A stretch of DNA of 64,000 nucleotides from Pseudomonas frederiksbergensis. GTDB lineage: Bacteria > Pseudomonadota > Gammaproteobacteria > Pseudomonadales > Pseudomonadaceae. Below the pieces are notes generated by a model, which was not told the origin of the DNA, ran no database searches, and saw only the letters and a program-made list of their open reading frames with translations. Made by a program: the position numbers and the translations under genes. Shown piece after piece: positions 1 through 20,203 of this stretch (its first letter is position 1; every line of letters begins with the position of its first letter). Where the stretch lies: the NCBI RefSeq assembly GCF_035751725.1, contig NZ_CP142104.1, positions 4,650,001-4,714,000 of the forward strand. Direction: 5' to 3'.

Positions 1-770
1 TCGAAGGTCAATTGCGCTGCTTCGCTGATCACCGTGACCCGCTTGCGCTTGAAGCCCAGATCGGTAGCGGTGCCCGCGACTTCGCTCACCGCCGCCCCGC
101 TCTGCTCGTCGTTGCCCTTGTGCTGGCCGATGACTCGGTATTCGGAGAACACCTGGCTGTAATCCATCGGTGCGTTGCCCGACAGGATGTTCTTGCCCAA
201 CTCCAACACATCACTGGCCCGCCCACCGCTGCCGGGCTTGGCCAACAGCACACGCCCTTGGGCATCGTCGGTGGAGAACACGCGGAACAACGTCAGCAAT
301 CGGTCGATGGACTGAAAGACCGTTTCCCCCGGCACGATACTGTGTTCGCTCAGCCGCGCGGTTTCGGGGATCTCACTGACCACACCCACGCCATATTGCG
401 CCGCCAAGGCCTGGACGATGCTCAGCAGCGTTTGCCCGCGCCATTGGCTCGGGCGATTGATGGCCGCGCAGTCCACCAGGTCCTGGGTTTTCGAGCCACC
501 TTCAATGCTCAGGCTGATCTGCCGGCCGTCATAGCTGACCGGTGCCTTGAACACATAGCCGCTGAGGACCAGGTCGGCACCGATGCGCACCTGGCATTCA
601 TCGCCCGGACGGATCGGCACCGCTTGGGTCTGCCCCGGCCACTGCCAGGTGATGTCCAGTTTGAAGGTGCGGAATTGGCGCTCCAGGTCCGCACTGATTT
701 CCACGCTTTTCCAGCCGCCGTAATCCAGCCCGCCGACAGTCAGCGAGACGGCATTATCGAGCTCATCCAT
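1..770 (-). CDS. Mu gpP-like baseplate hub protein (partial, 3' end off the window)
   Basis: The reading frame is open from an ATG at 768-770 to the left edge (256 codons) with no stop. The translation starts MDELDNAVSLTVGGLDYGG and contains the pattern of Mu gpP (gp44) and T4 gp27-like hubs: an N-terminal beta domain, then DLVDCAAINRPSQWRGQTL and a LysM-like linker region. In Mu-type tails this protein forms the central baseplate hub that docks the spike. It starts 3 nt after the stop of the gpN-like gene, so it is in the same operon. The reverse strand shows a 372-codon open frame here that is only its shadow. Assignment to the gpP family is fairly secure; the C-terminus cannot be judged. 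Confidence 0.8.
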   Translation of the reverse strand, partial: MDELDNAVSLTVGGLDYGGWKSVEISADLERQFRTFKLDITWQWPGQTQAVPIRPGDECQVRIGADLVLSGYVFKAPVSYDGRQISLSIEGGSKTQDLVDCAAINRPSQWRGQTLLSIVQALAAQYGVGVVSEIPETARLSEHSIVPGETVFQSIDRLLTLFRVFSTDDAQGRVLLAKPGSGGRASDVLELGKNILSGNAPMDYSQVFSEYRVIGQHKGNDEQSGAAVSEVAGTATDLGFKRKRVTVISEAAQLTF

Positions 771-773
771 GGT

Positions 774-2012
774 TTATTCCCCCGAGACTTTCAGGTCATT
801 GGGCGGCAGGAAACCAGGATGGGCGACGCCGTTACGCTGGGTCACTTCGGTCACTCGCGTGGCATCGGCGAATTGCTGATAGGCCACCACCAACGCCGGC
901 AGGCTTTGCTTGAACGACAGGCTGATCAGCCTCACGCCCGAAGACGCCACCGCCGTCAGGTGCGCGGCCATTTGCTGACGCAGGTTGTTCATCGCCTGGT
1001 AGTGCTCCGGGTCAGCCTTGAGCGAGGCTTGCCAGATCGCATCGTTCAAGGCATCGCGCAACGCCAGTACGTCGTCGGCGACCGGAACGTCCCGGCGCTG
1101 GACCGGTTGCACGGCCTGCTGCGCCACTGAAGGCGTGGCGCCCAACTTGACCGCGGGCGCCGCCACCGGCATCGCCGCAATCCATTGCGCGGCCTGCACC
1201 AGCAAGGTGTCCTGCACTAGGTTGGCGACAGCCTGGGCCGCCGCCGTGGTGTCCTTGCCGGTGGTCAGTTTGGGCGCGTCGGACTTGCCAATGGCCTCCA
1301 CCTGTTGCGACACGCTGGCAATCACACCGCGATAGCCGTCACGGGCAAAGTCCTTCAGTTCGCGGATGTCGCCCAGCAACCCCTTGAACTCGGCCACCAC
1401 TTCCTTGGGCAATTCTTTCACCGCCTTGACCAGATCGCTGAGTTGCCGATAGGTCTCGATCAGCGGTTTGAGCTCCTGCTCGATCACGCCGTAGATGTCC
1501 TTGAGGCTGTTGCGCAGGTCCGCAATGCCGATCCGCGCGGCCTTGATCAAGGTCATGGCGTCTTCGAAGCGTCGCACGGCCGACCCCAGGAAGCTGTCGG
1601 CCGAGACCAGCAACAATTTCTGGCTATTGATCGTGGCCGAGGGAAAAGGCAGCGGTTGGTCGGGGTAGAACTTCAGGGCGAACGTCACCAGCCCGCCGTC
1701 CTGGCGGGTCTGGGTCATGTCGCACTCGCCGACCTTGACCTGCAGGCGTCCCAGCCACGGGTGCACCAGCTCGCCACTGCCCTGCTCCAAGGCCTTGAGC
1801 AGCTTGTCGCGCTGCTCCAGGCAATCGGGGCCGACGATGAACGCGGTCAGCTCATGAATCTTCGCCTGCTGGCCGAGCCCTTCGAAAAACGGCTGGTCGC
1901 GCTGTGGGTATTCATGCAGTTGGCCCTTGTGGCCAACCGGGGTTTTCGCCTGGTCGACCCAGAACCCGACGCCACGAAACGACGCCGGCAACAAACGATC
2001 ACGCCAGCTCAT
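774..2012 (-). CDS. Mu gpN-like tail/DNA circularisation N-terminal domain protein
   Basis: The 412-residue product begins MSWRDRLLPASFRGVGFWVD, typical of the DNA_circ_N family (Mu gpN, gp43). The N-terminal 100 residues (RGVGFWVD, QRDQPFFEGLGQQA, GELVHPWLGRLQVKVGEC) are the recognisable domain; the rest is helical and alanine-rich. In Mu this is a structural tail and baseplate protein needed for tail assembly. The gene overlaps the end of the tape-measure gene by 14 nt and is followed 3 nt later by the gpP-like hub, matching Mu order 42-N-P. The family call is firm, the exact structural role is from the family. Confidence 0.85.
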   Translation of the reverse strand: MSWRDRLLPASFRGVGFWVDQAKTPVGHKGQLHEYPQRDQPFFEGLGQQAKIHELTAFIVGPDCLEQRDKLLKALEQGSGELVHPWLGRLQVKVGECDMTQTRQDGGLVTFALKFYPDQPLPFPSATINSQKLLLVSADSFLGSAVRRFEDAMTLIKAARIGIADLRNSLKDIYGVIEQELKPLIETYRQLSDLVKAVKELPKEVVAEFKGLLGDIRELKDFARDGYRGVIASVSQQVEAIGKSDAPKLTTGKDTTAAAQAVANLVQDTLLVQAAQWIAAMPVAAPAVKLGATPSVAQQAVQPVQRRDVPVADDVLALRDALNDAIWQASLKADPEHYQAMNNLRQQMAAHLTAVASSGVRLISLSFKQSLPALVVAYQQFADATRVTEVTQRNGVAHPGFLPPNDLKVSGE

Positions 2013-3543
2013 TGGAGCCTCCTGTGGAAAGTGAGCGATAGCCGATGCGCGAACTCACCGCCAGGGCCGGTTGATTGGTCTGCGGGGGATCGGCGCGCAA
2101 CCCGGCCGGCGCGTTTTCGAAGCGCACGGTCAGGCCGCCTTCGAGTTGCGTGCGGTTGTTGGCGGCGCTTTGTTGCACCAGATGGCTGGAAGTTTGCGGC
2201 AACGCCCCAGGTGCCAATGACGTTTTCACAGGAGCCAGGCTCGAAGGCTGGTCGCCGGCCCCGCCAAAAAACGCCGGCGCCAACTCGCCCTTGCCTTCGG
2301 CATTGGTGGCGCGTTGCGCCTCGGTCAGTCCTTCGACCTTGCCAGTAAACGAGGTGATCATTTCGCCAAAGCCGCCGTTGAAAAACGCCTTGATCGGCGC
2401 GATCACCGCCTGCAACTCGTTCCACCACTGGCTGAACCACTCGCCCACCGGCCCCCATTGTCGAGTCAGGCCCTCGATGGGCGACCAGTCGAACAGACCG
2501 CTGAACACCGCCAGCATGATCGACACCTGGTTGCGGATGCCTTCCCAGATCCCGGCGAAGACCTCGCCGATCGTGCCCCAGTTGGCCATGATCAATCCCA
2601 GCGGCGTCCAGTCGAACAGGCCTTTAAGGGCGTCCATCACCGGCACGGTCAAGGCTTTGAGCAGATCCCAGATCGCCGCGAACAAGCCGGTCAGGGGCGC
2701 CCAATTGGCAACAATCAAACCCAAGGGTGACCAGGCGAACAGCGTCTGCATGAAACCGATGACCGGCGTTGCCGCCGCCACGATCACATTCCAGAGCGCG
2801 CCGAAAAAACCGCTGATCGGCCCCCAATTGCTGATCACCTGCCCCATCGGGGTGTAGGCGAACATCGTCTTGAAGAACTCGACCATCGGCAGCACGATCG
2901 GCGCGAGCCGTTGCCAGAGCCCGGCAAAAAACGCCGAGATCGGCGTCCAGTGGGCGATGATCATCCCTGCCGCCAAGGCGATGCCCATGGCAATCAAGCT
3001 GATGGGGTTCATCTTCATGGCCAGGCTGACCACTTCCATGGCCTGGCTCGCGCCGCTGACCGCGGTCTGGATCGCGTTGAACGCGACAACGCCCGTCGCC
3101 AGGCCCTGGACCAGTTGAGGGTTGTCCTGCAGCACCTGGGCCACGCTGCTGACCATCGGTTGCAAGGCGACCGCCACCGTGTTCACCGCAGGCCCCAGCG
3201 CCGAACCGAATTGCACCGACACGTTGCTGATGGAAGTCTTCAATCCATCCAGGCTTTGTGCCGCCACACGAGGCGCTTCGGGCGCCTGCAGGGCGCTGGC
3301 CGCCGCGTTCACCGCGCCGACTTCACCCTTGAAGGCCAGCGCCGACTTGAGCCCGTCCATGAACGGTTGGGCCAGGCCGCCGCTGGGCAGCAGCGCGGAA
3401 ATGTCCAGGCTGCCCAACCCCGTGGCATCGAGGTTCTGCTTGAAACCCGCGACCTTCGCACGAAGGCTCGCGAGCTTGGGTGACAGCTCGTCGATGCCCG
3501 TCAGCAGCACTGCTTTTTTCTCTACCTTTTCTGTGTCTGCCAT
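1999..3543 (-). CDS. Tail tape-measure protein of the Mu-like module, with 41-residue repeats
   Basis: I use the ATG at 3541-3543, which overlaps the stop of the frameshifted chaperone frame (TGATG), giving 514 residues; a GTG one codon upstream is also open. Position (after tube and chaperone, before gpN and gpP), hydrophobic and glycine-rich composition and length fit a Mu gp42-like tape measure that sets tail length and is threaded through the tube. Roughly residues 199-392 are built from five tandem units of 41 residues (the last incomplete), each starting with a tryptophan followed by P-I/L or similar and carrying LF-x-W-(T/S)-P-L-G-L-I. Helices and hydrophobic stretches near residues 185-200 may insert in the target membrane. 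Confidence 0.85.
   Translation of the reverse strand: MADTEKVEKKAVLLTGIDELSPKLASLRAKVAGFKQNLDATGLGSLDISALLPSGGLAQPFMDGLKSALAFKGEVGAVNAAASALQAPEAPRVAAQSLDGLKTSISNVSVQFGSALGPAVNTVAVALQPMVSSVAQVLQDNPQLVQGLATGVVAFNAIQTAVSGASQAMEVVSLAMKMNPISLIAMGIALAAGMIIAHWTPISAFFAGLWQRLAPIVLPMVEFFKTMFAYTPMGQVISNWGPISGFFGALWNVIVAAATPVIGFMQTLFAWSPLGLIVANWAPLTGLFAAIWDLLKALTVPVMDALKGLFDWTPLGLIMANWGTIGEVFAGIWEGIRNQVSIMLAVFSGLFDWSPIEGLTRQWGPVGEWFSQWWNELQAVIAPIKAFFNGGFGEMITSFTGKVEGLTEAQRATNAEGKGELAPAFFGGAGDQPSSLAPVKTSLAPGALPQTSSHLVQQSAANNRTQLEGGLTVRFENAPAGLRADPPQTNQPALAVSSRIGYRSLSTGGSNELA
2368..2949 (-). repeat. Five tandem 41-codon repeats within the tape-measure gene
   Basis: The encoded units start at W-T-P-I-S, W-G-P-I-S, W-A-P-L-T, W-G-T-I-G and W-G-P-V-G, each exactly 41 residues after the previous one. 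Aligned positions share F-F/F-A, L-W/I-W, P-V, L-F, W-(T/S)-P and N-W at the junction. The DNA copies are diverged, so this is an old protein-level repeat and not a recent DNA duplication. Confidence 0.8.
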
Positions 3544-3707
3544 CACTGCACCTGCTGCATCGCATTGATCCGTTGCGCGTGCTCCAAGGATTCCCGGAGC
3601 ACGTCCAGTGGCCTGGCCATCATCTGTTCGGGGTCAACCTTCCAGAACCAGGCCAGGTCATAGGCGGCGGCGATCAGGTCGCCGATGGCCGCGACGCCGC
3701 ACTCATG
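3543..3707 (-). CDS. -1 frameshift extension of the Mu-like tail chaperone
   Basis: At 3707-3713 the coding strand reads T TTT TTC, in phase with the 0 frame as X XXY YYZ. A -1 shift continues at 3707 with HECGVAAIGDLIAAAYDLAW, then a short helical tail rich in Met and Gln, ending at the TGA at 3543-3545, which overlaps the tape-measure ATG. The fused product would be 142 residues (88 + 54). The tail contains a Trp-Phe-Trp and a methionine pair typical of E' or T-domain extensions that bind the tape measure. There is no good ribosome-binding site for independent translation. Frameshift in this gene is a conserved feature of tailed phages (lambda G/GT, P2 E/E'); here it is inferred from sequence. 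Confidence 0.8.
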   Translation of the reverse strand, partial: HECGVAAIGDLIAAAYDLAWFWKVDPEQMMARPLDVLRESLEHAQRINAMQQVQ

Positions 3708-3970
3708 AAAAAACTCGCGACGGCCCAGCTCAAGGCATTGAGGTCAGCCAGGTCCAACTGGTTGACCGACGACGGCGGGATACCGGCGCACACCGCGATG
3801 TATTTGGCCGCGACGTCCATGTCCAGGCTCACCTCCTCGCTCTTGTCGATCTTGTACGGCAGCGCCTTGATCGCCCGGACTTCCTGCACCGTCGGACGGC
3901 GCAGGGTCAGCTCGCTCAACGGCTCGCCGTGGGCCTCGATGGCCACCCTCAAGGTCACGACGTCAGTCAT
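3674..3970 (-). CDS. Tail assembly chaperone, short form (Mu gp41/P2 E-like)
   Basis: This 98-residue product (MTDVVTLRVAIEAHGEPLSE) has the LTLRRPTVQEVRAIKAL and DMDVAAKYIAVCAGIPPSSV segments of the gp41/E/14 tail-assembly family. It lies between the tube and tape-measure genes, the invariant position of the tail assembly chaperone, and its ATG overlaps the tube stop (ATGA). Such proteins coat the tape measure while the tube polymerises and are not found in the finished tail. Codons 86-88 contain a slippery run that should give a longer form (separate entry). The unshifted frame ends at 3674-3676, after only ten more codons. Confidence 0.85.
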   Translation of the reverse strand: MTDVVTLRVAIEAHGEPLSELTLRRPTVQEVRAIKALPYKIDKSEEVSLDMDVAAKYIAVCAGIPPSSVNQLDLADLNALSWAVASFFMSAASRPSAT

Positions 3971-4314: not shown

Positions 4315-4333
4315 GGTGTTTCTCCCTTCAAAT

Positions 4334-6060: not shown

Positions 6061-6641
6061 GGGGTTACGTCTCCAGAGAAAGTCAGTTCCACGCGCCCGT
6101 CGGGGCCGGGATGTTTCAGGTTGGGGTCCGCCGGGTCGATGGCATCGACCCGCACAGTGGCCCCGGTAAAGGACGACAAGCCGTCCAGTTCACGCTCGTG
6201 CCAGCTTTCGGCAGGCTGGCTCGCCAGGTTGCGGCCCAGCTGGAACTCGGCGAAAAAGCGCAGCCGGTACGACACACGGCTGCTGTTGATGGAAACCAGT
6301 TCGCTGCCGTCGTACTCGACGCCGGTGTACTCAGCGCCCGGCTTGAACCCCACCAGCGCCCGCCACAGTTCGGCCCGCAGGTCGTGCAACAGATCCAGCG
6401 CTTTTGTCGCGTCAGTGGCGTCAAGCACCAGCACCGCATCGAAGCGATCACGCACCGCTTGCAGCGTGACGTTTTGCGCCGCGTTCTTGCCGGCGATGTC
6501 GGCGGTGGGCAGGACATAGGCGCAGGGGGTTTGCAGCGGGGCCTCGGCTTGCAGCGTGGCGAGGTCAAAGCCTGCGGCCACGCGATGGGCGAGCGTGGGG
6601 CATTGCTCACGCAGTTGCGTGAGGATCGGGGTGATCTTCAT
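6057..6641 (-). CDS. Mu gp37-like tail terminator protein
   Basis: The 194-residue product (MKITPILTQLREQCPTLAHR) resembles Mu gp37 proteins, which sit upstream of DUF2635 and the sheath and are thought to cap the growing tail. Segments PCAYVLPTADIAGKNAAQNV and the acidic VLVLDATDATKALDLLHDLR are typical. GGAG lies 9 nt before the ATG. It is the first gene of the Mu-like module; a REPIN separates it from the P2-like module upstream. A tail with no head needs a terminator, so its retention fits a tailocin. Confidence 0.75.
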   Translation of the reverse strand: MKITPILTQLREQCPTLAHRVAAGFDLATLQAEAPLQTPCAYVLPTADIAGKNAAQNVTLQAVRDRFDAVLVLDATDATKALDLLHDLRAELWRALVGFKPGAEYTGVEYDGSELVSINSSRVSYRLRFFAEFQLGRNLASQPAESWHERELDGLSSFTGATVRVDAIDPADPNLKHPGPDGRVELTFSGDVTP

Positions 6642-6676
6642 CGAGGGACTCCAGTATCTGAAGGCGCGAGCGAACC

Positions 6677-6762
6677 CCGTGGGAACGGGCTTGCTCGCGA
6701 TGGCGGTGGGTCAGGCAGCAGAAATGTTGAATGGGATACCGCTATCGCGAGTTCCCACAGGG
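6677..6762. repeat. REPIN (inverted REP pair) between the two tail modules
   Basis: Two inverted REP-like sequences face each other: GTGGGAACGGGCTTGCTCGC on one side and CGCTATCGCGAGTTCCCACA on the other. This is the common Pseudomonas REP type. It fills the 128-nt gap between the late-control D gene and the Mu-like module. Confidence 0.75.
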
Positions 6763-6769
6763 GGTAGGG

Positions 6770-7786
6770 TCAGGCCTTGGCGTCCAGGCAGGTCGCGTCG
6801 ATGCTGCAGCGGTAGCTTTTTTCCCGGTCGCCGCTGGCGGTGACCTTGTCGATCGACCAGCGCCCGCGCATGAAATCCGGCCAGGTGGGGTCCAGCAGTA
6901 CGATGCCCTCGGCGGACAACCCCGGATTGCCGGGGCATTCGATCTTCACTTTCAAGGCTTCGCGTAACATCCGGCGCACCTCGCCTTCACCGGCGGCGCG
7001 GGCTTCCTCTGCGCTCTGGAAGCGCTGGCGCACGGTCTTGAACGGCGCGATGCCGCTCTCCTCGACCCGAAGCGTGCCCGCCGCCGCATCCCACCAAGTG
7101 GTCTTGCAACCGTTGTACTTTGCCCGCGCGGTTTCATCCAGCTTGGCCGAAATGAAAGCGTGATCACCCGGACGATTGTTCGTCGTCACTGACAGTTTCA
7201 TCTCGGGCAAGACCTTGCCCGACAACGACTTCGCCTGACCGCGCCGGGCCAGTACATACAACTCGTTGACCGGTTTGGCGACGGCGTCATAACGGTGGGC
7301 CAAGCGCGTGAGGAAACCCATGTCGGTTTCGTTGGACTGGTCGACATGCTCGATTCTGATCAGCGACAGGTCCGGCGCCACACGGGGCGAAAACCCGTGC
7401 CTGGAGGTCAGTTGACGAAACAGCGCCCCCAGAGTCGTCGGGCCATGGCTGACAGATCGGCGTTGCTTGAAGCCCGTCTGGTCCGCCGCGCTGAACGGCG
7501 CCGCCATGGCCACCAGAACGAGTTGCAGCGGAAACAGGAACGGCGTGCGCCGAGTGATGACGAACTCGCCTTTATCCACCAGTCCCGACTCCAGATAACC
7601 GACCCGCAGGCCGATTTTCCCGCCCAGGCTGGGCAACCCTTCCAGACCTTCCAGGCTGATGGTGAGCGTCAGTTGATCGGACTCGATCCCCGCCGCGTCG
7701 ACATGCTCCCACTTGAGCAGGCGCTCGTTGAGCAGCGCGGCATTCGCGCCATAAATTTCCACCGCAGGCGTAAAACCCAATGACAT
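6770..7786 (-). CDS. P2 gpD-like baseplate hub/late-control D family protein
   Basis: The 338-residue product (MSLGFTPAVEIYGANAALLN) belongs to the phage late-control D family, the baseplate hub of P2-like tails and of R-pyocins (PA0628-like). Typical stretches are GEFVITRRTPFLFPLQLVLV, the SETDMGFLTRLAHRYDA-like block (NETDMGFLTRLAHRYDA) and YNGCKTTWWDAAAG. It follows the X gene with 9 nt between. In P. aeruginosa R-pyocins the endolysin gene comes next; here a REPIN and a second tail module come next instead. Confidence 0.88.
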   Translation of the reverse strand: MSLGFTPAVEIYGANAALLNERLLKWEHVDAAGIESDQLTLTISLEGLEGLPSLGGKIGLRVGYLESGLVDKGEFVITRRTPFLFPLQLVLVAMAAPFSAADQTGFKQRRSVSHGPTTLGALFRQLTSRHGFSPRVAPDLSLIRIEHVDQSNETDMGFLTRLAHRYDAVAKPVNELYVLARRGQAKSLSGKVLPEMKLSVTTNNRPGDHAFISAKLDETARAKYNGCKTTWWDAAAGTLRVEESGIAPFKTVRQRFQSAEEARAAGEGEVRRMLREALKVKIECPGNPGLSAEGIVLLDPTWPDFMRGRWSIDKVTASGDREKSYRCSIDATCLDAKA

Positions 7787-7795
7787 GTCGCCTCC

Positions 7796-8008
7796 TTAAT
7801 CCCAGGCCGAAACCGGTGGGGTTGCCACGGGCTTGAGTTCCACTTCCGGCAAGACCACCCATACGCCCGCAGGCAATACCGGCCCCCATTCAGCCAACCC
7901 CGGATTGAGCTGCCAGAGCGCCTCCTCGACGACGTCGTCACAACGCTCCAGCTCGCGATACAGCAGCAGATTCGCCGAATCACCAGCGATACTTCGAACC
8001 CTACGCAT
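7796..8008 (-). CDS. P2 gpX-like tail protein
   Basis: The 70-residue product (MRRVRSIAGDSANLLLYREL) has the short LysM-like fold signature of P2 X: initial basic strand, DSANLLLYRELERCDDVVEE, then LNPGLAEWGPVLPAGVWVVL. P2 X and relatives probably bind the hub or connect baseplate parts. It overlaps the end of gpU by 8 nt and precedes D, the standard P2 order U-X-D. Confidence 0.85.
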   Translation of the reverse strand: MRRVRSIAGDSANLLLYRELERCDDVVEEALWQLNPGLAEWGPVLPAGVWVVLPEVELKPVATPPVSAWD

Positions 8009-8384
8009 TGGCGAACTCCGTCAAATCAACCACCCAACCGACCACCATTGCCGTGCCGTCATCAATGATTGCGGTCTGGGTTTCCGTGACATTGTTGATC
8101 CGCCACAGGCCCCAGTTGCGACCAATGCCGTCGACCAACGGCAACGGGACGCGCAGCGCCTGCAAAGCGCGCAACTCATCGAGGCGATCCATGGCGGTCG
8201 CGTACATCGATTTGCCGGTGATCGTCAGCCCTTGCAGGCCTTGGCCGATCTGGCTGGACTTGGGCTTGCTGGTGAGGATGTCGATGTTTTTCCAGCCGCC
8301 ATCCGACGTGTGTACCAATTGGTGGTAAGCAAAATTTCTCGACAGGCCAAAGATGAAACTGCCGAGGGCCATTTGTTGACGCAT
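8001..8384 (-). CDS. P2 gpU-like tail protein
   Basis: From the ATG at 8382-8384 the product is 127 residues (MRQQMALGSFIFGLSRNFAY). MALGSF-F and YHQLVHTSDGGWKNIDILTS are hallmarks of P2 gpU, a tail protein required for assembly. GGAGGT sits ahead of the ATG, which overlaps the tape-measure stop (TGATG). A GTG one codon upstream is also open but adds nothing. The position after the tape measure is as in R-pyocins (PA0626). Confidence 0.87.
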   Translation of the reverse strand: MRQQMALGSFIFGLSRNFAYHQLVHTSDGGWKNIDILTSKPKSSQIGQGLQGLTITGKSMYATAMDRLDELRALQALRVPLPLVDGIGRNWGLWRINNVTETQTAIIDDGTAMVVGWVVDLTEFANA

Positions 8385-10447
8385 CACGTACCTCCGTCGG
8401 TCAGGGCAGCGTCACTGCGCATGGCCAGTGTGTTGGGCATGGATGCCAGGCCGAACTGGCCGCTGATCTGTTGCACGACCAGGTTCGCCAACTGACTTGC
8501 ACTGGCCTGATCCTGGCCGTTGATGTAGATGTTCGCGGTCATGTTGTTCTGTTGAGCGGTGGTCTGGGCTGTGGTCTGGGCGCTGATCAAGTCTTGGGTC
8601 ACCGCCTCTGGCGCCTTGAGCCGATCACTGGGCGACGCCAGTTGCTCGCCTAGCCATGAACCGGCCATACCGCCCACGAAACCGCCGATTGCGGTGCCGA
8701 TTCCAGGCAAAAGGAACGACCCGATAGCCGCCCCAACGACCGTTCCGGTCATCTGGCCGACGGCACCTCCAACGGCCTTGTCGTCGCCGTCGCGCAATCC
8801 TTTGTAGGCATCGTATCCGGCACTGACCACCATTAGCGGTGCCGCTGCTTTGCTGACCAGGGGTTGGGCCTTGGCCACGGTCCCCATCAAACGGCTCGCC
8901 CTGCCGGCAGGCCTGGTCCTGGTCACGCGGGGCGCTCCTTTTTTGCCGCCCTTGCCCTTGCGGGTACCGTCACCAGCGTCGGCGATTACGTCCCCCACGC
9001 TTTCTGGCAGGCGAGCGGCGGTCTGGTCCAGGACCTTTTTGCCCACCCTCGAAAGCCCCTCCGACAACACAGCGTTGCCAAGCAGCGCCACCAGAGAGGC
9101 TACGGCCGCGACTGCAAGCGCAACGCCTGCTGCAGCCTTCGGCGACGCTTCTGCCAGCGAACTCAAACCGCCCGTCACTGTATCGAGGGAGGCCGTCAAA
9201 CCGTCATCCACCGGCATCAGCGCATTGCCAACCGCCGAGGACAGGCGCGTCTGATTCGCCTGATGAGCGTTCCATCGTCCTTGTGACGTATCCCCAAGCG
9301 TTTCGGCGGCCTTGGCAACGGAGCCGTCGTACTTCGGCAACGCTCCGTCAGTGGTCCGCTCGGACACCAGCGCAAACGCTTTCTGCGTGTCTTGCGGTTT
9401 TTTCAGCAGCTCAAGGATCGCCGTGTTATCGCCAAACAGAATCTTGGCAAGCGACTGTTGTTCTTCGGCAGGTTTTTTCTTCAGAGCTTCAAGCACCAGG
9501 GTGATGGTTCCCGATGCGTCCGTACGCAAACCGTCGGCCACCATCGCCGAATTGAACCTGGGGTCCAGCTCGGTCCAGGCCTGACGCTGCTGCGGTGAAG
9601 CTGCATTCCCCTTGGCCAGCACCGTGGTGAATACGTTCAAAGCCTCACCGGCGCCTGCCTTGTCCACGCCGCTGTTCAGGAACGCTGCCGCGAGGGCCGC
9701 CACTTGCTGCGGGGTCATGCCCGCGGCGATGCCAGCCTCGCCACCGCGTTGTACGACCGAGCCGATATCGGCCGCTTTGACATTCAGGCCGCTGTTGCCA
9801 AGGTGATTGGTCGCATCCGCCAGGCCCAGGCTTTGTCCCCGGTCCAGATCCAGCGCTGTGCGCCAGGCCATCAACATTTCGCTGGCAGCCTTGACATCAA
9901 GCCCGAACGCCGACGCCATGACCGCACTGTCGCGAGTGAAATTCAGTAACTCGTCCTGCTTCCTGGCTGGTTCGAGGCCACTGCCGATACCTGCTTTCGC
10001 CGCTACCAGTTCGACCTGCGCGAGTTGCACCGCTGTCGCCCCGCTGGGGGCCACCTGTTTTTCGCTGGCCATCTTCAGGTTGGCGATCGCCATGCCAGAG
10101 AGCTGGTCCTTGCTCAGTTTCGCCACCAGATTGAGCTCAACCATCGCCAACTCCAAGGCAATGGAAGACTTGCGTCGATCGGGTGGTGCGCTTTGTTCAA
10201 CCTCGGCCTTTAGCTTGGATTTCGGCTCGCTGCTTGAAGCGGCCGTCGATCCGCTTGCCTTGAGCAACGACTGCTGCTGTGACAAGGCAACGTTCAGCAA
10301 TGTCAGCGTTTCCCGCAATTTGACCTGTTCCGACACCAGCAGGCGGATGTCGAGACTGGCCGTGGTCAACGCCAGGTTCAGCCCCGATGTTTCGGATACG
10401 CTGCCCATGCTCGCCACGCCGGACAGCGAAAACGTATTGTCTGCCAT
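8384..10447 (-). CDS. Tail tape-measure protein of the P2-like module (gpT-like)
   Basis: The 687-residue product lies between E/E' and U, the place of P2 T. It has an N-terminal coiled-coil region, the PhageMin_Tail-type block around residues 180-330 (DSAVMASAFGLDVKAASEML, GLADATNHLGNSGLNVKAAD, GMTPQQVAALAAAFLNSGVD), an Ala/Val/Leu membrane-like stretch near 435-460, and a glycine-zipper segment near 585-620 (VGAAIGSFLLPGIGTAIGGF) that may act in the target inner membrane. It is about a third longer than the tape measure of the Mu-like module, so the two particles should have different tail lengths (inference). Confidence 0.88.
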   Translation of the reverse strand: MADNTFSLSGVASMGSVSETSGLNLALTTASLDIRLLVSEQVKLRETLTLLNVALSQQQSLLKASGSTAASSSEPKSKLKAEVEQSAPPDRRKSSIALELAMVELNLVAKLSKDQLSGMAIANLKMASEKQVAPSGATAVQLAQVELVAAKAGIGSGLEPARKQDELLNFTRDSAVMASAFGLDVKAASEMLMAWRTALDLDRGQSLGLADATNHLGNSGLNVKAADIGSVVQRGGEAGIAAGMTPQQVAALAAAFLNSGVDKAGAGEALNVFTTVLAKGNAASPQQRQAWTELDPRFNSAMVADGLRTDASGTITLVLEALKKKPAEEQQSLAKILFGDNTAILELLKKPQDTQKAFALVSERTTDGALPKYDGSVAKAAETLGDTSQGRWNAHQANQTRLSSAVGNALMPVDDGLTASLDTVTGGLSSLAEASPKAAAGVALAVAAVASLVALLGNAVLSEGLSRVGKKVLDQTAARLPESVGDVIADAGDGTRKGKGGKKGAPRVTRTRPAGRASRLMGTVAKAQPLVSKAAAPLMVVSAGYDAYKGLRDGDDKAVGGAVGQMTGTVVGAAIGSFLLPGIGTAIGGFVGGMAGSWLGEQLASPSDRLKAPEAVTQDLISAQTTAQTTAQQNNMTANIYINGQDQASASQLANLVVQQISGQFGLASMPNTLAMRSDAALTDGGT

Positions 10448-10453: not shown

Positions 10454-10615
10454 CTACTCCTGTTTCACGCCAAGGCGAGTGATCGCGATGTCGTAGCGGC
10501 GCAAGGCCTTGCCGGCGTCCCACTCCAGGATTTCCGCCTCACTTACCGAGTAAATGAGCGGCACCACATCGAGGATCACTTCGATGTCGCGCTCCGAAAG
10601 AAGTCCGCCGGTTTG
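10454..10615 (-). CDS. -1 frameshift extension E' of the P2-like tail chaperone
   Basis: The coding strand at 10615-10624 reads TTTTTTAAAC, offering two overlapping in-phase slippery heptamers, T TTT TTA and T TTA AAC. A -1 shift resumes at 10615 with QTGGLLSERDIEVILDVVPL and ends at the TAG at 10454-10456, giving a 229-residue fusion if the shift is at T TTA AAC. The extension (EAEILEWDAGKALRRYDIAI) looks like P2 GpE'-type tails. There is no independent start with a good ribosome-binding site. The tape-measure ATG follows 6 nt later. P2 itself shifts at T TTT TTG in E. Confidence 0.82.
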   Translation of the reverse strand, partial: QTGGLLSERDIEVILDVVPLIYSVSEAEILEWDAGKALRRYDIAITRLGVKQE

Positions 10616-11142
10616 TTTAAAAAATCGTCGATGCGTACCTGCAACTGGGTCCAGTCGGGCACGCTTAAAAGATCGAGATCGGGAATCATCAGGCCGGTGC
10701 AATGGGCGGTGATGAACTCGGCGCGCTCCTTGGCCGTCTTCAGCTTTTTCATGGCCTTGGTCGCACGCAGCACCGGCATTTCCAGGGTCAACGAGGTCAG
10801 GCTGCGGCCCGCGACGTCGAGCGGTTGCAGCAGCTGCACCTGGTCGGGATCGGCCTGTGGGTCATCCAGAAAATACGACGCCGGGCGCGTGGACATTTCG
10901 TGCACGTACTGGGCAATGCTCACGTAGTCCGGGCGTTTGAGCTGGTCGAGTTCCTTGCCCGACAGGCCGGTGGCCAACTTGGCCAGCTCGAAGAACTGCT
11001 CGTCTTCGTCATCGCCAGCGCGAGCCAGGGCGTCTTTTTGCGCGGCGTAGAACAGCGGTTTGAGTGTGAGCTGCTCGATCTGCGAACCGTCGTCACCGGT
11101 GATCGGCGACAACAGTTCATGGGTAGGAGGTATCCAGGACAT
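10576..11142 (-). CDS. P2 gpE-like tail assembly chaperone, short form
   Basis: From the ATG at 11140-11142 (MSWIPPTHELLSPITGDDGS), preceded by AAGGAAT, the product is 188 residues. It contains the E-family blocks FFELAKLATGLSGKELDQLK and RPDYVSIAQYVHEMSTRP, then a linker and a second helical region. That makes it about twice the usual P2 E length, as in R-pyocin PA0624-like proteins. It is an assembly factor for the tape measure and not part of the finished tail. The last 13 residues follow the slippery site and are replaced in the frameshifted form. It follows the tube gene after an 87-nt gap with a REP fragment. Confidence 0.83.
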   Translation of the reverse strand: MSWIPPTHELLSPITGDDGSQIEQLTLKPLFYAAQKDALARAGDDEDEQFFELAKLATGLSGKELDQLKRPDYVSIAQYVHEMSTRPASYFLDDPQADPDQVQLLQPLDVAGRSLTSLTLEMPVLRATKAMKKLKTAKERAEFITAHCTGLMIPDLDLLSVPDWTQLQVRIDDFLNKPADFFRSATSK

Positions 11143-12904: not shown

Positions 12905-13132
12905 TTATTCAGCCTTTTTGGTGGTGGCCTTTACGGCCTTGGTGATTGGGGTAGCTTGCGCGTCAGCAGCCAGCTGCTGCGCGTTCAGGACGCTGGTCAG
13001 TTCGAGGCGACCGGCACTGCGCAAAGCACTGGCCTCAACATCCAACAAATCCAACGTCTGGCCGGCGCTCGACCAATGGCCGCCACCGGTAGGAAATGGC
13101 AACAGCACGGTGTATTGCTTACGAATGGGCAT
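12905..13132 (-). CDS. Small phage protein upstream of the sheath, function unknown
   Basis: The 75-residue product (MPIRKQYTVLLPFPTGGGHW) has a hydrophobic start, a GGGHWSSAGQTLDLL motif and a Lys/Ala-rich C-terminus (KAVKATTKKAE). I do not recognise the family. It occupies the place that DUF2635 holds in Mu-like tails (directly ahead of the sheath, 2 nt gap), so a role in sheath or tail completion is possible but only inferred. Coding potential is supported by the tight spacing and by two terminators placed just upstream of it. Confidence 0.65.
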   Translation of the reverse strand: MPIRKQYTVLLPFPTGGGHWSSAGQTLDLLDVEASALRSAGRLELTSVLNAQQLAADAQATPITKAVKATTKKAE

Positions 13133-13481: not shown

Positions 13482-13484
13482 TCC

Positions 13485-16293: not shown

Positions 16294-16622
16294 GTCGTCA
16301 CCTCGAAAGTCTGTTTGCGGTTTTTCCAGATACCGGCGAAACGCAGCAGCAACCCGGCTCCGTGCCGGCTGGCGACGATGACCTGGGGCTCGAAATCATC
16401 GATACCGTTGTGCGGGTTGTAGAACGCTTGGGCCGCGTGGCTCTGGGCGAGGATCAGCAGGTCGTCGCCGAGGTTCTGCCCCAGCAGCTGGGTGAGTGCG
16501 CAGCCATACAACGGGCGCTTCTGGCGAGTGCCCAACGGCGTGGTCAGCGCCCGGGTGGCGCGCTGAACGAACTGCAGCCAGTCGTCCACCGTGGCGCCAG
16601 TGTTTCGATCGATTCCAATCAT
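16290..16622 (-). CDS. P2 gpW-like baseplate protein (gp25 family)
   Basis: The 110-residue product (MIGIDRNTGATVDDWLQFVQ) has the GPW_gp25 pattern: G-x-D-(x)n-DWLQFVQRATRALTTPLGTR, R-PLYGCALTQLLGQN and RFAGIWKN. In P2 and T4 this protein holds the inner baseplate ring and starts sheath assembly. It lies between V and J as in P2 and R-pyocins (V-W-J-I). Confidence 0.92.
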   Translation of the reverse strand: MIGIDRNTGATVDDWLQFVQRATRALTTPLGTRQKRPLYGCALTQLLGQNLGDDLLILAQSHAAQAFYNPHNGIDDFEPQVIVASRHGAGLLLRFAGIWKNRKQTFEVTT

Positions 16623-16633
16623 TAGGAAATCTC

Positions 16634-17245
16634 TTATGCGGTACTGATGACGCGCCCCTGGTGATCCACCACCGGGCCGCTCAAGTGCACACCGGAGGCG
16701 TCGAGGCGAATGCCGACGGCGCCGACTTGCAGTTCGATGGCCTCGGGCGTCATCGCCAGCCGCGACGGGCCGATGTTCAACTGCAGGGCTTCACGGGAGC
16801 CGCTGAACGCCGCCGGGCCGTTTTGCCAGTGCAGGACATGGCTGGCGTGGTCGTAGCCGTTTTCCGTACCGTCCTGATAGAGGCGCCGCGTCAGCGAGGC
16901 CTGGGTCGAGACGGGCGGGAACTGACCACCGTTGAGGCCAAACAACGCCACCGCCTGCCCGCCGCTCTCGCCGCCGCCATGGTTGAGCAACAGGCATTGC
17001 TCGCCCACGGACGGAATCCGCGACTCGCTCTGGGCGCCGGCGCTGGGGTTGAAAAAGCGGATCGCCGGGGTCAGCAGTCCGCCATGGCTGACTTTGCAGG
17101 TGTTGCTGGCCGCGTCGACTTCCTGGCAAATGCCGATGCGGCAGAAACTTTCCGCACGTCGATGCAAGTCTTCCAGCTCGGTTTCCATCTGCGCCAGACG
17201 CTCGATGATCGGCCCCAGATGCATCCGTAACAGCGTATCAAACAT
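16634..17245 (-). CDS. P2 gpV-like baseplate spike protein
   Basis: The 203-residue product begins with a helix (MFDTLLRMHLGPIIERLAQM), then an OB-like domain (CRIGICQEVDAASNTCKVSH, RIPSVGEQCLLLNHGGGESG) and a C-terminal beta-helix of short repeats (AIELQVGAVGIRLDASGVHL). This is the gpV spike that punctures the outer membrane. It ends at GPVVDHQGRVISTA; I see no H-x-H iron-binding apex that many gpV spikes have at the tip. Either the tip is lost or a separate cap protein supplies it. The gene starts 3 nt after the completion protein. Confidence 0.87.
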   Translation of the reverse strand: MFDTLLRMHLGPIIERLAQMETELEDLHRRAESFCRIGICQEVDAASNTCKVSHGGLLTPAIRFFNPSAGAQSESRIPSVGEQCLLLNHGGGESGGQAVALFGLNGGQFPPVSTQASLTRRLYQDGTENGYDHASHVLHWQNGPAAFSGSREALQLNIGPSRLAMTPEAIELQVGAVGIRLDASGVHLSGPVVDHQGRVISTA

Positions 17246-17248
17246 GGC

Positions 17249-17761
17249 TCAGCCCTCGAGTGCGGTGTATTGGTCCGGGTCGTCGATGTTCGACACTTCC
17301 CAGGTGCGGGCAAACTTCGGGATACCCAGCGGGTCCTCCAGCAGCGTCGGGCCGAGGTACAGGGTTTGGGTGAAGGAAAGGGTCCAGGCGGTGTATTGCC
17401 GTGCCGGGTTGATGAACTCGGACGGCAGGCCATCGAGTTCCGTGGGCATGTCGCATTGATCGCCCGACAGCCCCCAGCGGTTATCCATGACCAAGTGCTT
17501 CAGCTCAGCGGCCAAATCGCAGGCCTCCCAGCCCGGAACGGCCATGACCACTTGCAGGGAAACCGTCAGGACATGAGCGATACGCCCGTCGTTGGCGCGG
17601 TGGCCGGGGGCATCACGCTCGATGGCAATCAGCACCCAGGGTTGGTCGTCGGTCCCATCGAAATCCTGGGGGCTGCCGACTTTCAAGGTGGGATAAGTGG
17701 TGCGCAGCGTCTGGGCGATGGCCGAGAACAACTGCGACGGTTTTTCGAGGACGGCAGGCAT
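17249..17761 (-). CDS. Tail completion-type protein (R-pyocin PA0615-like position)
   Basis: The 170-residue product (MPAVLEKPSQLFSAIAQTLR) lies between holin and V, where R-pyocin clusters have a conserved protein of this size. Blocks QPWVLIAIERDAPGHRANDG, LTVSLQVVMAVPGWEACDLA and YTAWTLSFTQTLYLGP have the look of a tail terminator or completion protein that caps the tube end. An AAGGAGG site precedes the ATG. Function is inferred from position and family resemblance. Confidence 0.7.
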   Translation of the reverse strand: MPAVLEKPSQLFSAIAQTLRTTYPTLKVGSPQDFDGTDDQPWVLIAIERDAPGHRANDGRIAHVLTVSLQVVMAVPGWEACDLAAELKHLVMDNRWGLSGDQCDMPTELDGLPSEFINPARQYTAWTLSFTQTLYLGPTLLEDPLGIPKFARTWEVSNIDDPDQYTALEG

Positions 17762-17806
17762 CCAGGCCTCCTTTTTTATGGCGGCACAAAGATCATTAGC
17801 GAGTGA

Positions 17807-18157
17807 TCAATGTTGGTCGGAACGGGAATCACGCGGCGGTGGCGCACTAACGCCCATCCGCTTGGCGGCCCAGCGTTCGTAAAGCCCGATGGCCACGTCC
17901 GCCCCGGCCATTGCGGTCAGGCATCCGAAGGCGCCCGCGGCCCAGATCGAGAAGCCCATGGCGTACAACAGCATGATCGCCGAGACGCCGCAGACCATGC
18001 AGGCACCGGAACGCAGCGCCAGGCGACGCAGCAGCGACCAGCCACGGGCGCCCTCCTTATCGGCACGCCACATCTCGCCAGTCACCCCGCCCACCAGGGC
18101 GAGCACGATGACCAGCCAGATCGGCATGTCCAGCAACGCTTGTTGCTCGTTTGTCAT
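17807..18157 (-). CDS. Phage holin (P2/HP1-type, three membrane segments)
   Basis: From the ATG at 18155-18157, preceded by AGGAAG, the product is 116 residues (MTNEQQALLDMPIWLVIVLA). It has three hydrophobic segments near residues 12-27, 47-65 and 71-88 and a basic C-terminus (RWAAKRMG), the layout of Pseudomonas R-pyocin holins (PA0614-like). It makes the inner-membrane hole that lets an endolysin reach the wall so the tailocins are released. The matching endolysin and spanins are not in the window and may lie beyond the left edge. The longer frame to 18388 overlaps the preceding gene and is rejected. Confidence 0.85.
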   Translation of the reverse strand: MTNEQQALLDMPIWLVIVLALVGGVTGEMWRADKEGARGWSLLRRLALRSGACMVCGVSAIMLLYAMGFSIWAAGAFGCLTAMAGADVAIGLYERWAAKRMGVSAPPPRDSRSDQH

Positions 18158-18221
18158 GTCAGGCTTCCTGGGGGTGAGTGATGAGCGTTTGGGGCGGGGG
18201 TCATTGAAGACGGGCGACGTT

Positions 18222-18803
18222 CTACAGTCGCTCAACGATGACGTTGTCGATGAAAGCGAAGTTGACGTAAGGATTCTGTTCGTTGGAGAAGGCCAAAGTC
18301 GTTTGAGCCGAAGTGGCCGTGAAGTCATACGTGATGGTGCTCCACTCCACGGCGGTACCTTTCGCCGATGGCGTGTTGAAGGTGACACTCTGCCCCGCCA
18401 CCTTGACCTGGATGGTGCCGTCGCCGGAGCGGCTGGCGTAGCGCGAATTACCCGCGCTGAAGGTCAAGCGGTACTTGGCGCCGACTGCGGTGGCGAAGTT
18501 CTGCTGAATGCCACCGCCGTTGCTATAGACATAGTTAGCCAAGTCGACAATTACGACGCCATCCGCCGCCACAGAACCGCCGATCGAGGCCGGCATATTG
18601 AAGTACTCGGCTCCAGACAGAAACGTCGTCCAACCCGTAATAAAGTTGGCTTTCGCCGGAGTATTCAATATGCAACTCGCGCTGCAGCCCGGCTGTTCGA
18701 AGCTACCGTTGACCAGAAGGTTGGCGGCGCTGGCGTTGCTCCCGACACCGGGCAGCGCAATGGACAGCAACAGCGGGGCGATATATTTCTTGAAACGATT
18801 CAT
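18222..18803 (-). CDS. Exported DUF642-like beta-sandwich protein (moron gene)
   Basis: The 193-residue product has a signal peptide (MNRFKKYIAPLLLSIALPGV, probable cut after NASA at residue 26), then ANLLVNGSFEQPG, FITGWTTFLSGAEY, GGGIQQNFATAVGAKYRLTF and a C-terminal YVNFAFIDNVIVERL. The last block matches the DUF642 / choice-of-anchor C galactose-binding-like fold, usually a carbohydrate binder. Two cysteines (40 and 44) sit in a short loop. It is not a tail part. It lies between com and holin with AAGAGGTGA before its ATG, so it would be induced together with the tailocin. Its function here is unknown. Confidence 0.7.
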   Translation of the reverse strand: MNRFKKYIAPLLLSIALPGVGSNASAANLLVNGSFEQPGCSASCILNTPAKANFITGWTTFLSGAEYFNMPASIGGSVAADGVVIVDLANYVYSNGGGIQQNFATAVGAKYRLTFSAGNSRYASRSGDGTIQVKVAGQSVTFNTPSAKGTAVEWSTITYDFTATSAQTTLAFSNEQNPYVNFAFIDNVIVERL

Positions 18804-18819
18804 GATTCACCTCTTGAGT

Positions 18820-18843
18820 TATCGATTGATCGCGCGGTTGATC
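18820..18843 (-). promoter_or_regulatory. Inverted repeat over the com stop, ahead of the DUF642-like gene
   Basis: On the minus strand TTGATC-AACCGCGC-GATCAA spans the com stop codon and ends shortly before the ribosome-binding site AAGAGGTGA of the next gene. It recalls the Mu mom leader, where a hairpin by the com stop controls translation of the next gene, but the stem here is only 6 bp. Confidence 0.35.
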
Positions 18844-19000
18844 AACAGCGCTCATCTCGCTCGCTGGCGTTTACTCGAGGCTCAACGGCCTTCACATGAT
18901 TCAACGTCCCGCACCGGGAACACCTGATCTGGAGTTCGGTGTGCTCGCCCATGCGGGCCAGCAGTTTTTTGCAGTGACCGCATCTGAAATCCTTCAGCAT
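18842..19000 (-). CDS. com: Com-family zinc-finger regulator (Mu Com-like)
   Basis: The 52-residue product (MLKDFRCGHCKKLLARMGEH) has C-G-H-C and C-S-R-C pairs in the arrangement R-C-x-x-C-x-K-L-L ... I-R-C-x-R-C-x-x-x-N of Mu Com, a zinc-binding protein that binds mRNA and activates translation of the DNA modification gene mom. GGGAGGG lies before the ATG. A longer frame from 19126, also with a GGAGG site, adds 42 residues that cover a terminator-like hairpin; Com homologues start as chosen here. No mom-like gene follows; the next gene encodes an exported protein. It may regulate that gene or the tailocin message (inference). Confidence 0.8.
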   Translation of the reverse strand: MLKDFRCGHCKKLLARMGEHTELQIRCSRCGTLNHVKAVEPRVNASERDERC

Positions 19001-19053
19001 CGAAAGCCCTCCCATTGGCGGCGGTTTGAAGCACCTCACGGCACAGGCATTCC

Positions 19054-19078
19054 AAAAAGCCCGGTTACCCAGGCTTTT
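19054..19078 (-). terminator. Terminator-like hairpin in the tailocin leader
   Basis: On the minus strand AAAAGCCTGG-GTAA-CCGGGCTTTT is followed by TGG, so the T run is the 3' arm itself. It lies in the transcribed leader between the promoter at 19301-19329 and com. It may act as an attenuator or antitermination target. Confidence 0.45.
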
Positions 19079-19273
19079 CAGTAATGCGCTTGATCTTTCG
19101 GCGCGACTGGCGCGGTACGGATCCATTCAAATTGTTCCTCCGGCCGCGGTCCCTGCCCGCCGGATAACTGCTTCTGGTGCTTTACGCTGCACACCCGGGC
19201 CAGTTGCCAACCCTCTGAACCGTTAAGGCCGGTTCATCGCTGCCTGTTGGTGGAACTAAAGAGCTTTGTTGCC

Positions 19274-19293
19274 AGCCGCTTTGTCGAGCGGCT
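19274..19293 (-). promoter_or_regulatory. Stem-loop at the start of the tailocin leader
   Basis: AGCCGCT-CGACAA-AGCGGCT on the minus strand lies immediately downstream of the -10 box of the tailocin promoter, so it would form the 5' end of the transcript. It could stabilise the message. Confidence 0.4.
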
Positions 19294-19300
19294 TGGACAC

Positions 19301-19329
19301 AGAATATGCATGGATGCATATACAGTCAA
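19301..19329 (-). promoter_or_regulatory. Probable sigma70 promoter of the tailocin operon
   Basis: The minus strand reads TTGACT (19324-19329), a 17-nt spacer and TATTCT (19301-19306). Spacing is ideal and both boxes are close to consensus. The spacer and -10 box are occupied by a palindrome (operator entry at 19304-19321), so a bound repressor would exclude RNA polymerase. Transcription would run into com, the DUF642-like gene, holin and the tail genes. Confidence 0.75.
19304..19321. promoter_or_regulatory. Operator 1, perfect inverted repeat in the promoter
   Basis: ATATGCAT-GG-ATGCATAT is an 8+8 bp perfect inverted repeat with a 2-nt centre, lying inside the promoter spacer and overlapping the -10 box. 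It is the best-conserved of three related sites and is the expected target of the PrtR-like repressor encoded immediately upstream. Confidence 0.75.
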
Positions 19330-19344
19330 TGCGTAAATGCATTT
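19327..19344. promoter_or_regulatory. Operator 2
   Basis: CAATGCGT-AA-ATGCATTT repeats the operator 1 pattern with two arm mismatches, centred 23 bp upstream of operator 1 and touching the -35 box. Confidence 0.65.
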
Positions 19345-19357
19345 ATTTATGCGTTGC

Positions 19358-19375
19358 GAATGCGCAAATGCATGA
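19358..19375. promoter_or_regulatory. Operator 3
   Basis: GAATGCGC-AA-ATGCATGA has the same GC(R)(Y)NNATGC core, centred 31 bp upstream of operator 2. A further half site, TTATGCGT, lies at 19347-19354 between them. Confidence 0.6.
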
Positions 19376-19414
19376 AAGCCTTGTAAATGCGGGGGTGTGA
19401 GTTTTCACGAGGCG

Positions 19415-19442
19415 AAAAAAAACCCGCACGACGGCGGGTTTT
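19415..19442 (-). terminator. Terminator of the repressor gene
   Basis: On the minus strand AACCCGC-CGTCGT-GCGGGTT runs into eight T, just after the repressor stop. It separates the repressor transcript from the tailocin promoter region. Confidence 0.85.
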
Positions 19443-19459
19443 ATCTGACAGCGGAAGGG

Positions 19460-20203
19460 TTAGCGGGCGTACATGCCCCACCAGAAGACGTGACCGAGGA
19501 TGACGATCTGCTCGTCCTGCATTTCCTGGAAGGTGTAGTCCTCATCCGGATGCTCATCGCGGTTGAAGCTGCGCAGGCGGATGCCGGTGGGCAGGCGATA
19601 AAGCTGCTTCACCCGCAGTTGGCCGTTGTGGTTGATGGCGTAGAGGTCACCGTCGACGATGTCGCCGATCCCGCATTTACCGGCATTCACCCCAACCGTG
19701 GCGCCGTCGCGCAGCACTGGCAACATGCTGTTGCCGCGTACCGTCACGCATTTGGCCTGGTCGAACTGCACGCCGTTGTGGCGCAGGCTGCGCTTGCCGA
19801 AGCGCAGGCTGGAGCGCTCGCTTTCCTCGATGACGAATCTTCCTGATCCAGCAGCCAATTCAACCTCACGCAGAAAAGGGACCGACACCTCGTCTTCTTC
19901 GACGGGTGTTTCGTCGTCCCACAGGCTAATGTCCTTGAGTTCGGAATGCGGCTCGTCGCGGCGGACATTGCCGGCAGGCACAACGTCCGCGCGCCCGCGC
20001 AACTGGTCGGTGCTCACGGCAAAATATTCGGCGATCTTCGAGATGTGTTTATCCGAAGGGTCGACGATCTTGCCGCTGAGGATCCGCGAGAGGGTGGACT
20101 GAGGCACGCCGGTACGCCGGTGAAGCTCCGTGGGGGAGATCCCGTGCTGATCGAGCAATGCTCTTAATACGGTAGAAACGTTGCGTTTTTGCATAACGCG
20201 CAT
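19460..20203 (-). CDS. prtR: PrtR/LexA-like self-cleaving repressor of the tailocin cluster
   Basis: From ATG 20201-20203 (MRVMQKRNVSTVLRALLDQH) the product is 247 residues; a start three codons later is equally possible, and neither has a strong Shine-Dalgarno. The N-terminus is a helix-turn-helix of the XRE type (PTELHRRTGVPQSTLSRILS). The C-terminus is an S24 peptidase with an Ala-Gly cut site (VELAAGSGRF, near residues 118-119), catalytic Ser in VRGNSM (159) and Lys in LRVKQL (199). RecA activated by DNA damage should trigger self-cleavage and derepression. In P. aeruginosa PrtR represses the activator prtN; no prtN-like gene is seen here, and operator-like sites lie directly in the tailocin promoter. 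Confidence 0.88.
   Translation of the reverse strand: MRVMQKRNVSTVLRALLDQHGISPTELHRRTGVPQSTLSRILSGKIVDPSDKHISKIAEYFAVSTDQLRGRADVVPAGNVRRDEPHSELKDISLWDDETPVEEDEVSVPFLREVELAAGSGRFVIEESERSSLRFGKRSLRHNGVQFDQAKCVTVRGNSMLPVLRDGATVGVNAGKCGIGDIVDGDLYAINHNGQLRVKQLYRLPTGIRLRSFNRDEHPDEDYTFQEMQDEQIVILGHVFWWGMYAR

Follow-up and report, generated by a model that had tools for sequence, protein, structure and literature searches.

The window analysed here, a stretch of 64,000 nucleotides (nt) of Pseudomonas frederiksbergensis (G000:C1:4650001-4714000, from a genome assembled as one contig of 6.0 Mb), very probably carries at the mutS-cinA hotspot a P. fluorescens-group locus for two R-tailocins, orthogonal particles of P2/R-pyocin type and of Mu/SfV type that share a switch and lysis genes. 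The cluster was analysed together with the 20 kb to the left of the window (pieces L002 and L003), and gene identities were taken from profile searches; each of the 40 proteins between repressor and spanin, both included, was run against Pfam or PHROGs. Direct observation covers gene content, order and intactness, purifying selection, the sharing of the lysis genes and which of the modules the relatives have or lack.

The P2/R-pyocin-type module is complete from the holin to the hub D (window 18157-6770, minus strand) and is followed by a complete Mu/SfV-type module, which runs leftwards from window position 6641 and whose fibre genes extend to 7.7 kb beyond its left edge (Table 1). The two modules encode separate sheaths, tubes, frameshifted chaperones, tape measures, hubs, spikes, wedges and fibres, and both have all the genes that mark an R-type tailocin, those for a contractile sheath with its tube, a baseplate, a tape measure and fibres. 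The original prediction for this window had described a module in P2/R-pyocin order followed on the same strand by one in Mu order, each with its own sheath, tube, chaperone, tape measure and hub, and both points were borne out part by part by the profile searches and by comparison with the PDB. The two sheaths, as it had also held, differ in length (388 versus 498 amino acids, aa) and in sequence: when the 16 proteins of the P2 module were compared by blastp with the 18 of the Mu module, there was no match between the sheaths, tubes, hubs or wedges at E<=0.1, and the only matches were between the fibre chaperones and over short stretches of V/gp45 and of I/tape measure. The P2-type sheath has no Pfam match at E 0.001 and takes its identity from phrog_23 and its PDB match. 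The sequence of 9khy_a, the PDB chain matched by the Mu-type sheath, also forms part of entry 9ki1, which contains Mu gp44, and the Mu-type sheath itself is 100% identical in P. frederiksbergensis SI8, the nearest named record.

As is characteristic of R-type tailocins, and as the original prediction had noted for head, terminase and integrase genes in its view, the 40 cluster proteins gave no Pfam match to capsid, portal, terminase or integrase, and the prohead protease PF04586 has no match in the whole genome. Two PHROG labels, 'portal' on the Mu-type terminator and 'head closure' on the P2-type tube, were discarded, as they are contradicted by the Pfam terminator and tube models. Beyond the left edge of the window the Mu-type module runs on intact to its three fibres and is followed by endolysin, spanin and cinA; neither capsid, portal or terminase genes (by Pfam) nor a disruption of the module, which the original prediction had named as possible counter-evidence, appeared there. 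The tail genes are all on the minus strand, with mutS (recognised by its translation) on one side and cinA-recA-recX (by Pfam) on the other, the borders that define the mutS-cinA locus of the P. fluorescens group. Tandem R-tailocins at the mutS locus of this group, which the prediction had given as known, are in print (PMC2647930, PMC7815802).

Both modules recur in relatives, together and apart. A survey covered 199 genomes of the genus, that of the window strain among them; the P2-type sheath was present in 53 at 79-100% identity (next matches 29% and less) and the Mu-type sheath in 45 at at least 86% identity. The two stand on one contig in 23 genomes, on the same strand, P2 then Mu, 5.2-6.9 kb apart, and on separate contigs in G035; 29 genomes have the P2-type sheath only, 21 the Mu-type sheath only and 125 neither, absences that may reflect contig breaks. 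Co-occurrence of the two sheaths gave a Fisher p of 1.3e-5, uncorrected for kinship. Of the 29 genomes counted as P2 only, G179 contains part of a Mu-type sheath, and G052 one of 82% identity elsewhere. A second set comprised 80 named loci with the Mu-type sheath, 77 of them with at least 7.5 kb of upstream sequence; a P2 sheath lies upstream in 49 of the 77, in all cases on the same strand, with the sheaths 5.8-6.9 kb apart. In the close P2-only relatives G153, G125, G039 and G160, D is followed by endolysin, spanin and cinA, the gap between D and the endolysin being 33 nt in G153, 134 nt in G039, 72 nt in G160 and 1135 nt of other DNA in G125. The Mu-only relative G049 has the holin followed by gp37, without a P2 module, and in five double genomes (our own, G112, G010, G183 and G097) the genes run from repressor and holin through the P2 and Mu modules to the lysis genes and cinA, with the endolysin unmatched in G010. 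As the P2-only, Mu-only and double states share one place, the tail modules behave as cassettes between holin and endolysin, as was proposed by Mavrodi et al. in 2009 (PMC2647930).

Several points weigh against a double locus with a shared switch. The own-type P2 sheath is missing upstream in 28 of the 77 named Mu-sheath loci, and the locus is not always P2-only, Mu-only or double: G062, with Mu-type genes and 9.9 kb upstream that lack a match to our P2 module, repressor or holin, fits none of these states. Co-transcription across the 128-nt hairpin between the modules is assumed, and promoter scans were at chance level, the module junction giving 0 promoter-like sites against 0.2 expected and the repressor side 1 against 1.3 expected. 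In addition, both particles of the window strain are predicted from genes. This last point, together with the P2-type fibre in two short open reading frames (ORFs; 176 and 206 aa) that could resemble a break, might favour the view that one module is a decaying prophage remnant and that only one particle is made, which we consider very unlikely. The two-ORF fibre was rejected as a lesion because the form is kept in two relatives: both ORFs and their chaperone are matched in G125 and G112, the ORFs with 90-96% identity and, against G112, a ratio of nonsynonymous to synonymous substitution rates (dN/dS) of 0.06 each, so that the form is a stable one. Neither ORF was matched in G153, G039, G160, G010, G183 or G097. 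Moreover, the structural ORFs of both modules are all open in the window strain, and those for which dN/dS was computed are under purifying selection.

The dN/dS values were computed against G112, G010 and G183 where at least 80% of a gene was aligned, which gave no value for com, the holin and fibre C in any of the three relatives; X, D and the sheaths were re-checked, and chaperone E was computed separately. The two sheaths have values of 0.02-0.07 and the tubes of 0.00-0.13. Constraint is weakest in the tape measures (0.15-0.43), in I (0.14-0.31), in gp37 (0.22-0.29), in the spanin (0.23-0.29) and in the 170-aa protein (0.17-0.26), and every computed gene pair is at or below 0.32 except the Mu tape measure against G183 (0.43). 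Slippery heptamers stand in register with the -1 frame open over the stop in both chaperones, TTTTTTA and TTTAAAC in E and TTTTTTC in gp41. Two relatives have stops upstream of Met24 in E, so that E probably starts at Met24; this upstream part aside, no stops were met in the remaining gene pairs computed. Judged by the kept slippery sites and the low dN/dS of sheaths and tubes, the preservation of both modules goes beyond chance. More improbable still is a single hybrid particle, or a complete prophage, made up of both modules. The two are contiguous, on the same strand and served by one lysis set, but the main parts (sheath, tube, hub and wedges) each occur in two versions that share no blastp similarity, no head genes were found by Pfam and each module stands alone in some relatives; a complete prophage was rejected because the tail, fibre and lysis genes to the left of the window include no head genes.

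In the double R-tailocin locus that we favour, one PrtR-like repressor, one holin and one endolysin are common to both modules, and the lysis set is split, with the single holin at the start of the cluster and the single endolysin and spanin at its end. The lysis cassette and SOS-type repressor expected of an R-type tailocin are both predicted here, from PF16085, S24-HTH (helix-turn-helix), GH19 and Rz matches. Because one repressor and one split lysis cassette serve both modules, one control region is the simplest reading, and the different fibres and tape measures (687 versus 515 aa) support different specificities and lengths; the predicted production of two different particles under one control region, with different fibres and tail lengths, thus appears supported. 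By analogy we infer co-transcription, particle production and killing as follows. DNA damage would inactivate the repressor, as its S24 domain suggests, and one long transcript would run from the repressor-holin side. A P2/R-pyocin-type particle would assemble from the 388-aa sheath, the 687-aa tape measure and its own fibre, and a Mu/SfV-type particle from the 498-aa sheath, the 515-aa tape measure and three alternative fibres. Release of both would fall to the one holin and the one endolysin/spanin set, which would burst the cell and free the particles, whose fibres, by homology with tested systems, would bind the lipopolysaccharide of the target, followed by contraction and then membrane depolarisation.

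The hairpin at the junction, of the repetitive extragenic palindromic (REP) type, was considered as a special module boundary and rejected, since REP pairs recur in other gaps of the operon. In relatives, both REP 8-mers are present in 32 of 55 junction gaps, and 34 of the 47 that were folded have z < -3; elsewhere in the operon the 8-mers occur in 27 of 75 P-gp45 gaps and 18 of 43 FII-E gaps, and in two further gaps in 0 of 80 and 0 of 50.

Table 1. Features of the tailocin cluster and its borders (window positions, unless piece L002 or L003, left of the window, is given)
Feature	Position	Strand	Basis and remarks
mutS, right host border	21650..24229	+	translation; match of at least 92% identity in 18 named loci
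DUF6124 protein, between mutS and repressor	20615-21001	+	
PrtR-like repressor, HTH + S24 peptidase, control gene	19460..20203	-	PF01381, PF00717; phrog_4
Com-like zinc ribbon protein	18842..19126	-	PF10122; sole match in genome
DUF642/choice-of-anchor C protein, signal-like N-terminus	18222..18803	-	PF04862; phrog_18458, function unknown
Holin, only one recognised in cluster	17807..18157	-	PF16085 over residues 78-186 of longer ORF
170-aa protein	17761-17249	-	phrog_1072, function not stated
Spike V	17245-16634	-	PF04717
Wedge W	16622-16290	-	phrog_43; without Pfam match
Wedge J	16293-15298	-	PF04865
I	15301-14657	-	PF09684
Fibre H, 176 aa	14660-14130	-	phrog_3737
Second fibre ORF, 206 aa	14105-13485	-	weak PHROG match (phrog_8748) over first 38-47 residues only; fibre part by position
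Fibre chaperone, 87 aa	13481-13218	-	PF16778
75-aa protein ahead of P2-type sheath	12905..13132	-	phrog_6423, function unknown
Sheath FI, 388 aa	12902-11736	-	phrog_23; R2 pyocin sheath PA0622 in PDB, E 2e-17
Tube FII	11736-11230	-	PF04985
Tail chaperone E, -1 frameshift extension	10454..11142	-	PF10109
P2-type tape measure, 687 aa	10447-8384	-	PF10145, TIGR01760
U, X and hub D together	6770..8387	-	U PF06995; X PF05489
Hub D	7786-6770	-	phrog_52; R2 pyocin chain 6u5h_C, E 7.5e-19
128-nt gap that separates the modules, with REP-type hairpin	6642..6769	-	fold z -4.0
gp37-like tail terminator	6641-6057	-	PF23840
DUF2635 protein, 60 aa	6060-5878	-	PF10948; matched in 80/80 named loci
Mu-type sheath, 498 aa	5878-4382	-	PF04984, phrog_165; PDB 9khy_a, E 1.8e-90
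Mu-type tube	4314-3967	-	PF10618, phrog_185
Chaperone gp41, -1 frameshift extension	3543..3970, gp41 frame 3970-3674	-	PF10109
Mu-type tape measure, 515 aa	3546-1999	-	phrog_4200; TIGR01760 just under cut-off
N	2012-774	-	PF07157, phrog_184
Hub P (gp44)	770 leftwards beyond window edge (rest in L003)	-	PF21683/22255/21929; Mu gp44 1wru, MuSo2 3cdd
gp45, gp46, gp47	left of window, L003		PF06890; PF07409; PF04865
gp48	left of window		PF10076
Tandem array of three fibre genes, with the gene after each	L002 17141-12330	-	
Endolysin, GH19	L002 12305-11742, 8.3 kb left of window	-	PF00182
Rz-like spanin	L002 11760-11224	-	PF03245, phrog_2466
cinA	L002 11152-10652		PF02464; then recA, recX by Pfam

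The three fibres on the Mu side have 47-49 of their first 72 positions in common pairwise, a common N-terminal anchor, and diverge beyond. The chaperones after the second and third fibre genes are confirmed by profiles (PF02413, PF16778); the first is followed by a 169-aa protein (phrog_8983, function unknown) that is assigned as a chaperone by its position alone. Fibre copies in relatives were counted as N-termini within 25 kb downstream of the 44 Mu-type modules of at least 86% identity (the 45 above minus the split-contig G035), and the counts are approximate, being based on those of the matches listed that reach about 76 bits or more and including a G108 copy with a stop in its matched part. 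Among the matches listed, 1, 2, 3, 4 and 5 copies were found in 7, 1, 4, 5 and 6 of the 23 double clusters, and 0, 1, 2, 3, 4 and 5 copies in 1, 7, 7, 3, 2 and 1 of the 21 Mu-only clusters; ten more distant Mu-type sheaths (79-83%) have, within the same matches, one fibre each.

Tape measures were collected from the fetched loci and our own, with starts set by a simple rule and therefore approximate, and the 81 Mu-type sequences were not dereplicated. Lengths range over 657-824 aa in the P2 type (58 sequences) and 457-845 aa in the Mu type. The Mu-type tape measure of the window strain has five 41-residue repeats anchored by tryptophan (W); 4 to 13 such units stand in register in 75 of the 81 Mu-type tape measures, and a lag of 41 gives the strongest self-match in 73 of 81, whereas in the P2 type it is outside the commonest strongest lags. 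The median length of the Mu type for 1, 2, 3, 4 and 5 W in register is 585, 537, 523, 499 and 520 aa, and for 6, 7, 8, 9, 11 and 13 it is 563, 590, 632, 673, 756 and 845 aa; contrary to a simple length rule, six sequences with 1-3 W in register are nevertheless 513-623 aa long. Repeat number and length correlate weakly under a strict motif (rho 0.24) and with rho 0.62 across the 81 sequences when W in exact 41-register is counted. It is conceivable, if rather doubtful, that the length of the Mu-type tailocin could be adjusted stepwise, evolving through gain or loss of whole 41-residue units among sheaths of 86-100% identity, which would give a second axis of specificity beside the array of one to five fibre genes. 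Each unit may add about 6 nm if helical, and tail length might then match the thickness of the O-antigen of the target. Co-adapted tail lengths of the two modules were rejected, as the lengths of the P2- and Mu-type tape measures per locus correlate weakly (Spearman 0.26, p 0.06, n=51, uncorrected for kinship). A literature search on tape measure recombination in tailocins, judged by titles and the starts of abstracts, gave nothing relevant.

Among the remaining genes, the 170-aa protein, without a PDB match, is perhaps the collar or terminator of the P2-type module, a role suggested by its position. The Com-like zinc ribbon protein adjoins the repressor and is a possible post-transcriptional regulator of the tailocins; Com of phage Mu is a translational activator of mom. 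The DUF642 protein, which scores below the cut-off of TIGR04362 and is matched in G153, G125 and G183 at 75-94% identity, would be a cargo gene within the tailocin operon, possibly secreted or carbohydrate-binding, and a literature search on both words, DUF642 and tailocins, found nothing on the two together. A distant P2-like sheath (25% identity) at G000:C1:3843407-3844558 is perhaps that of a prophage.

The PAO1 R2/F2 locus likewise holds two tail modules together, and the P2-type sheath and hub of the window are homologous to R2 pyocin; in its gene order, in contrast, the second module is a flexible F-type tail. It also differs in sitting between trpE and trpG (PMC10598620). Mavrodi et al. 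(2009, PMC2647930) likened to this locus the prophage-like mutS-recA region of strain Pf0-1, with SfV-type ('lambda-like') and P2/CTX-like tail clusters, and named its conserved prtR-hol and lys flanking segments a recombination hotspot. By this description the Pf0-1 region is like the window locus, with SfV-type and P2-type tail clusters at the mutS-cinA site, but its SfV-type tail was read by the authors as F-pyocin-like, unlike our reading here; that head and integrase genes are missing is said there of Pf-5 and Q8r1-96. P. protegens CHA0 carries R-tailocins #1 and #2 at mutS-cinA/recA, both seen by transmission electron microscopy and with tagged sheaths, and the length of the tape measure is said to explain that of the particle (Vacheron et al. 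2021, PMC7815802). The window locus resembles it in having two predicted R-tailocins, each with its own sheath, tape measure and fibres, and differs in that CHA0 is said to have two endolysins (PMC7815802) and the window cluster has one recognised. In Pse04, two particles of one strain have separate targets (PMC8319346). The tailocin subtypes Rp3 and Rp4 of Carim et al. (2021) are defined by a tail tube that clusters with tailocin 1 of P. fluorescens SF4c and with P. syringae B728a, respectively. The P. chlororaphis cluster (Dorosky et al. 2017, 2018, via the review PMC12090994) comprises two tailocins of distinct origins with one lysis cassette, and its three fibre genes are reported to give three kinds of particle; by description it is like the window locus in its two tailocins, one lysis cassette and three fibre genes on one of them.

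The arrangement is therefore already known: the idea of a wider killing range through two particles that differ in ancestry and fibres but share a lysis set is in print. New are only the survey numbers, with the arrays of one to five fibre genes and the 41-residue repeat of the Mu-type tape measure, which is not a new kind of repeat because W/F-anchored tape-measure repeats, in 11-residue and 11-11-18 patterns, were already known (PMC3271669). Should tail length prove to be a selected trait, the repeat-based tape measure would be of modest importance. The present locus adds a clean, fully sequenced double tailocin together with figures on how common the arrangement is.

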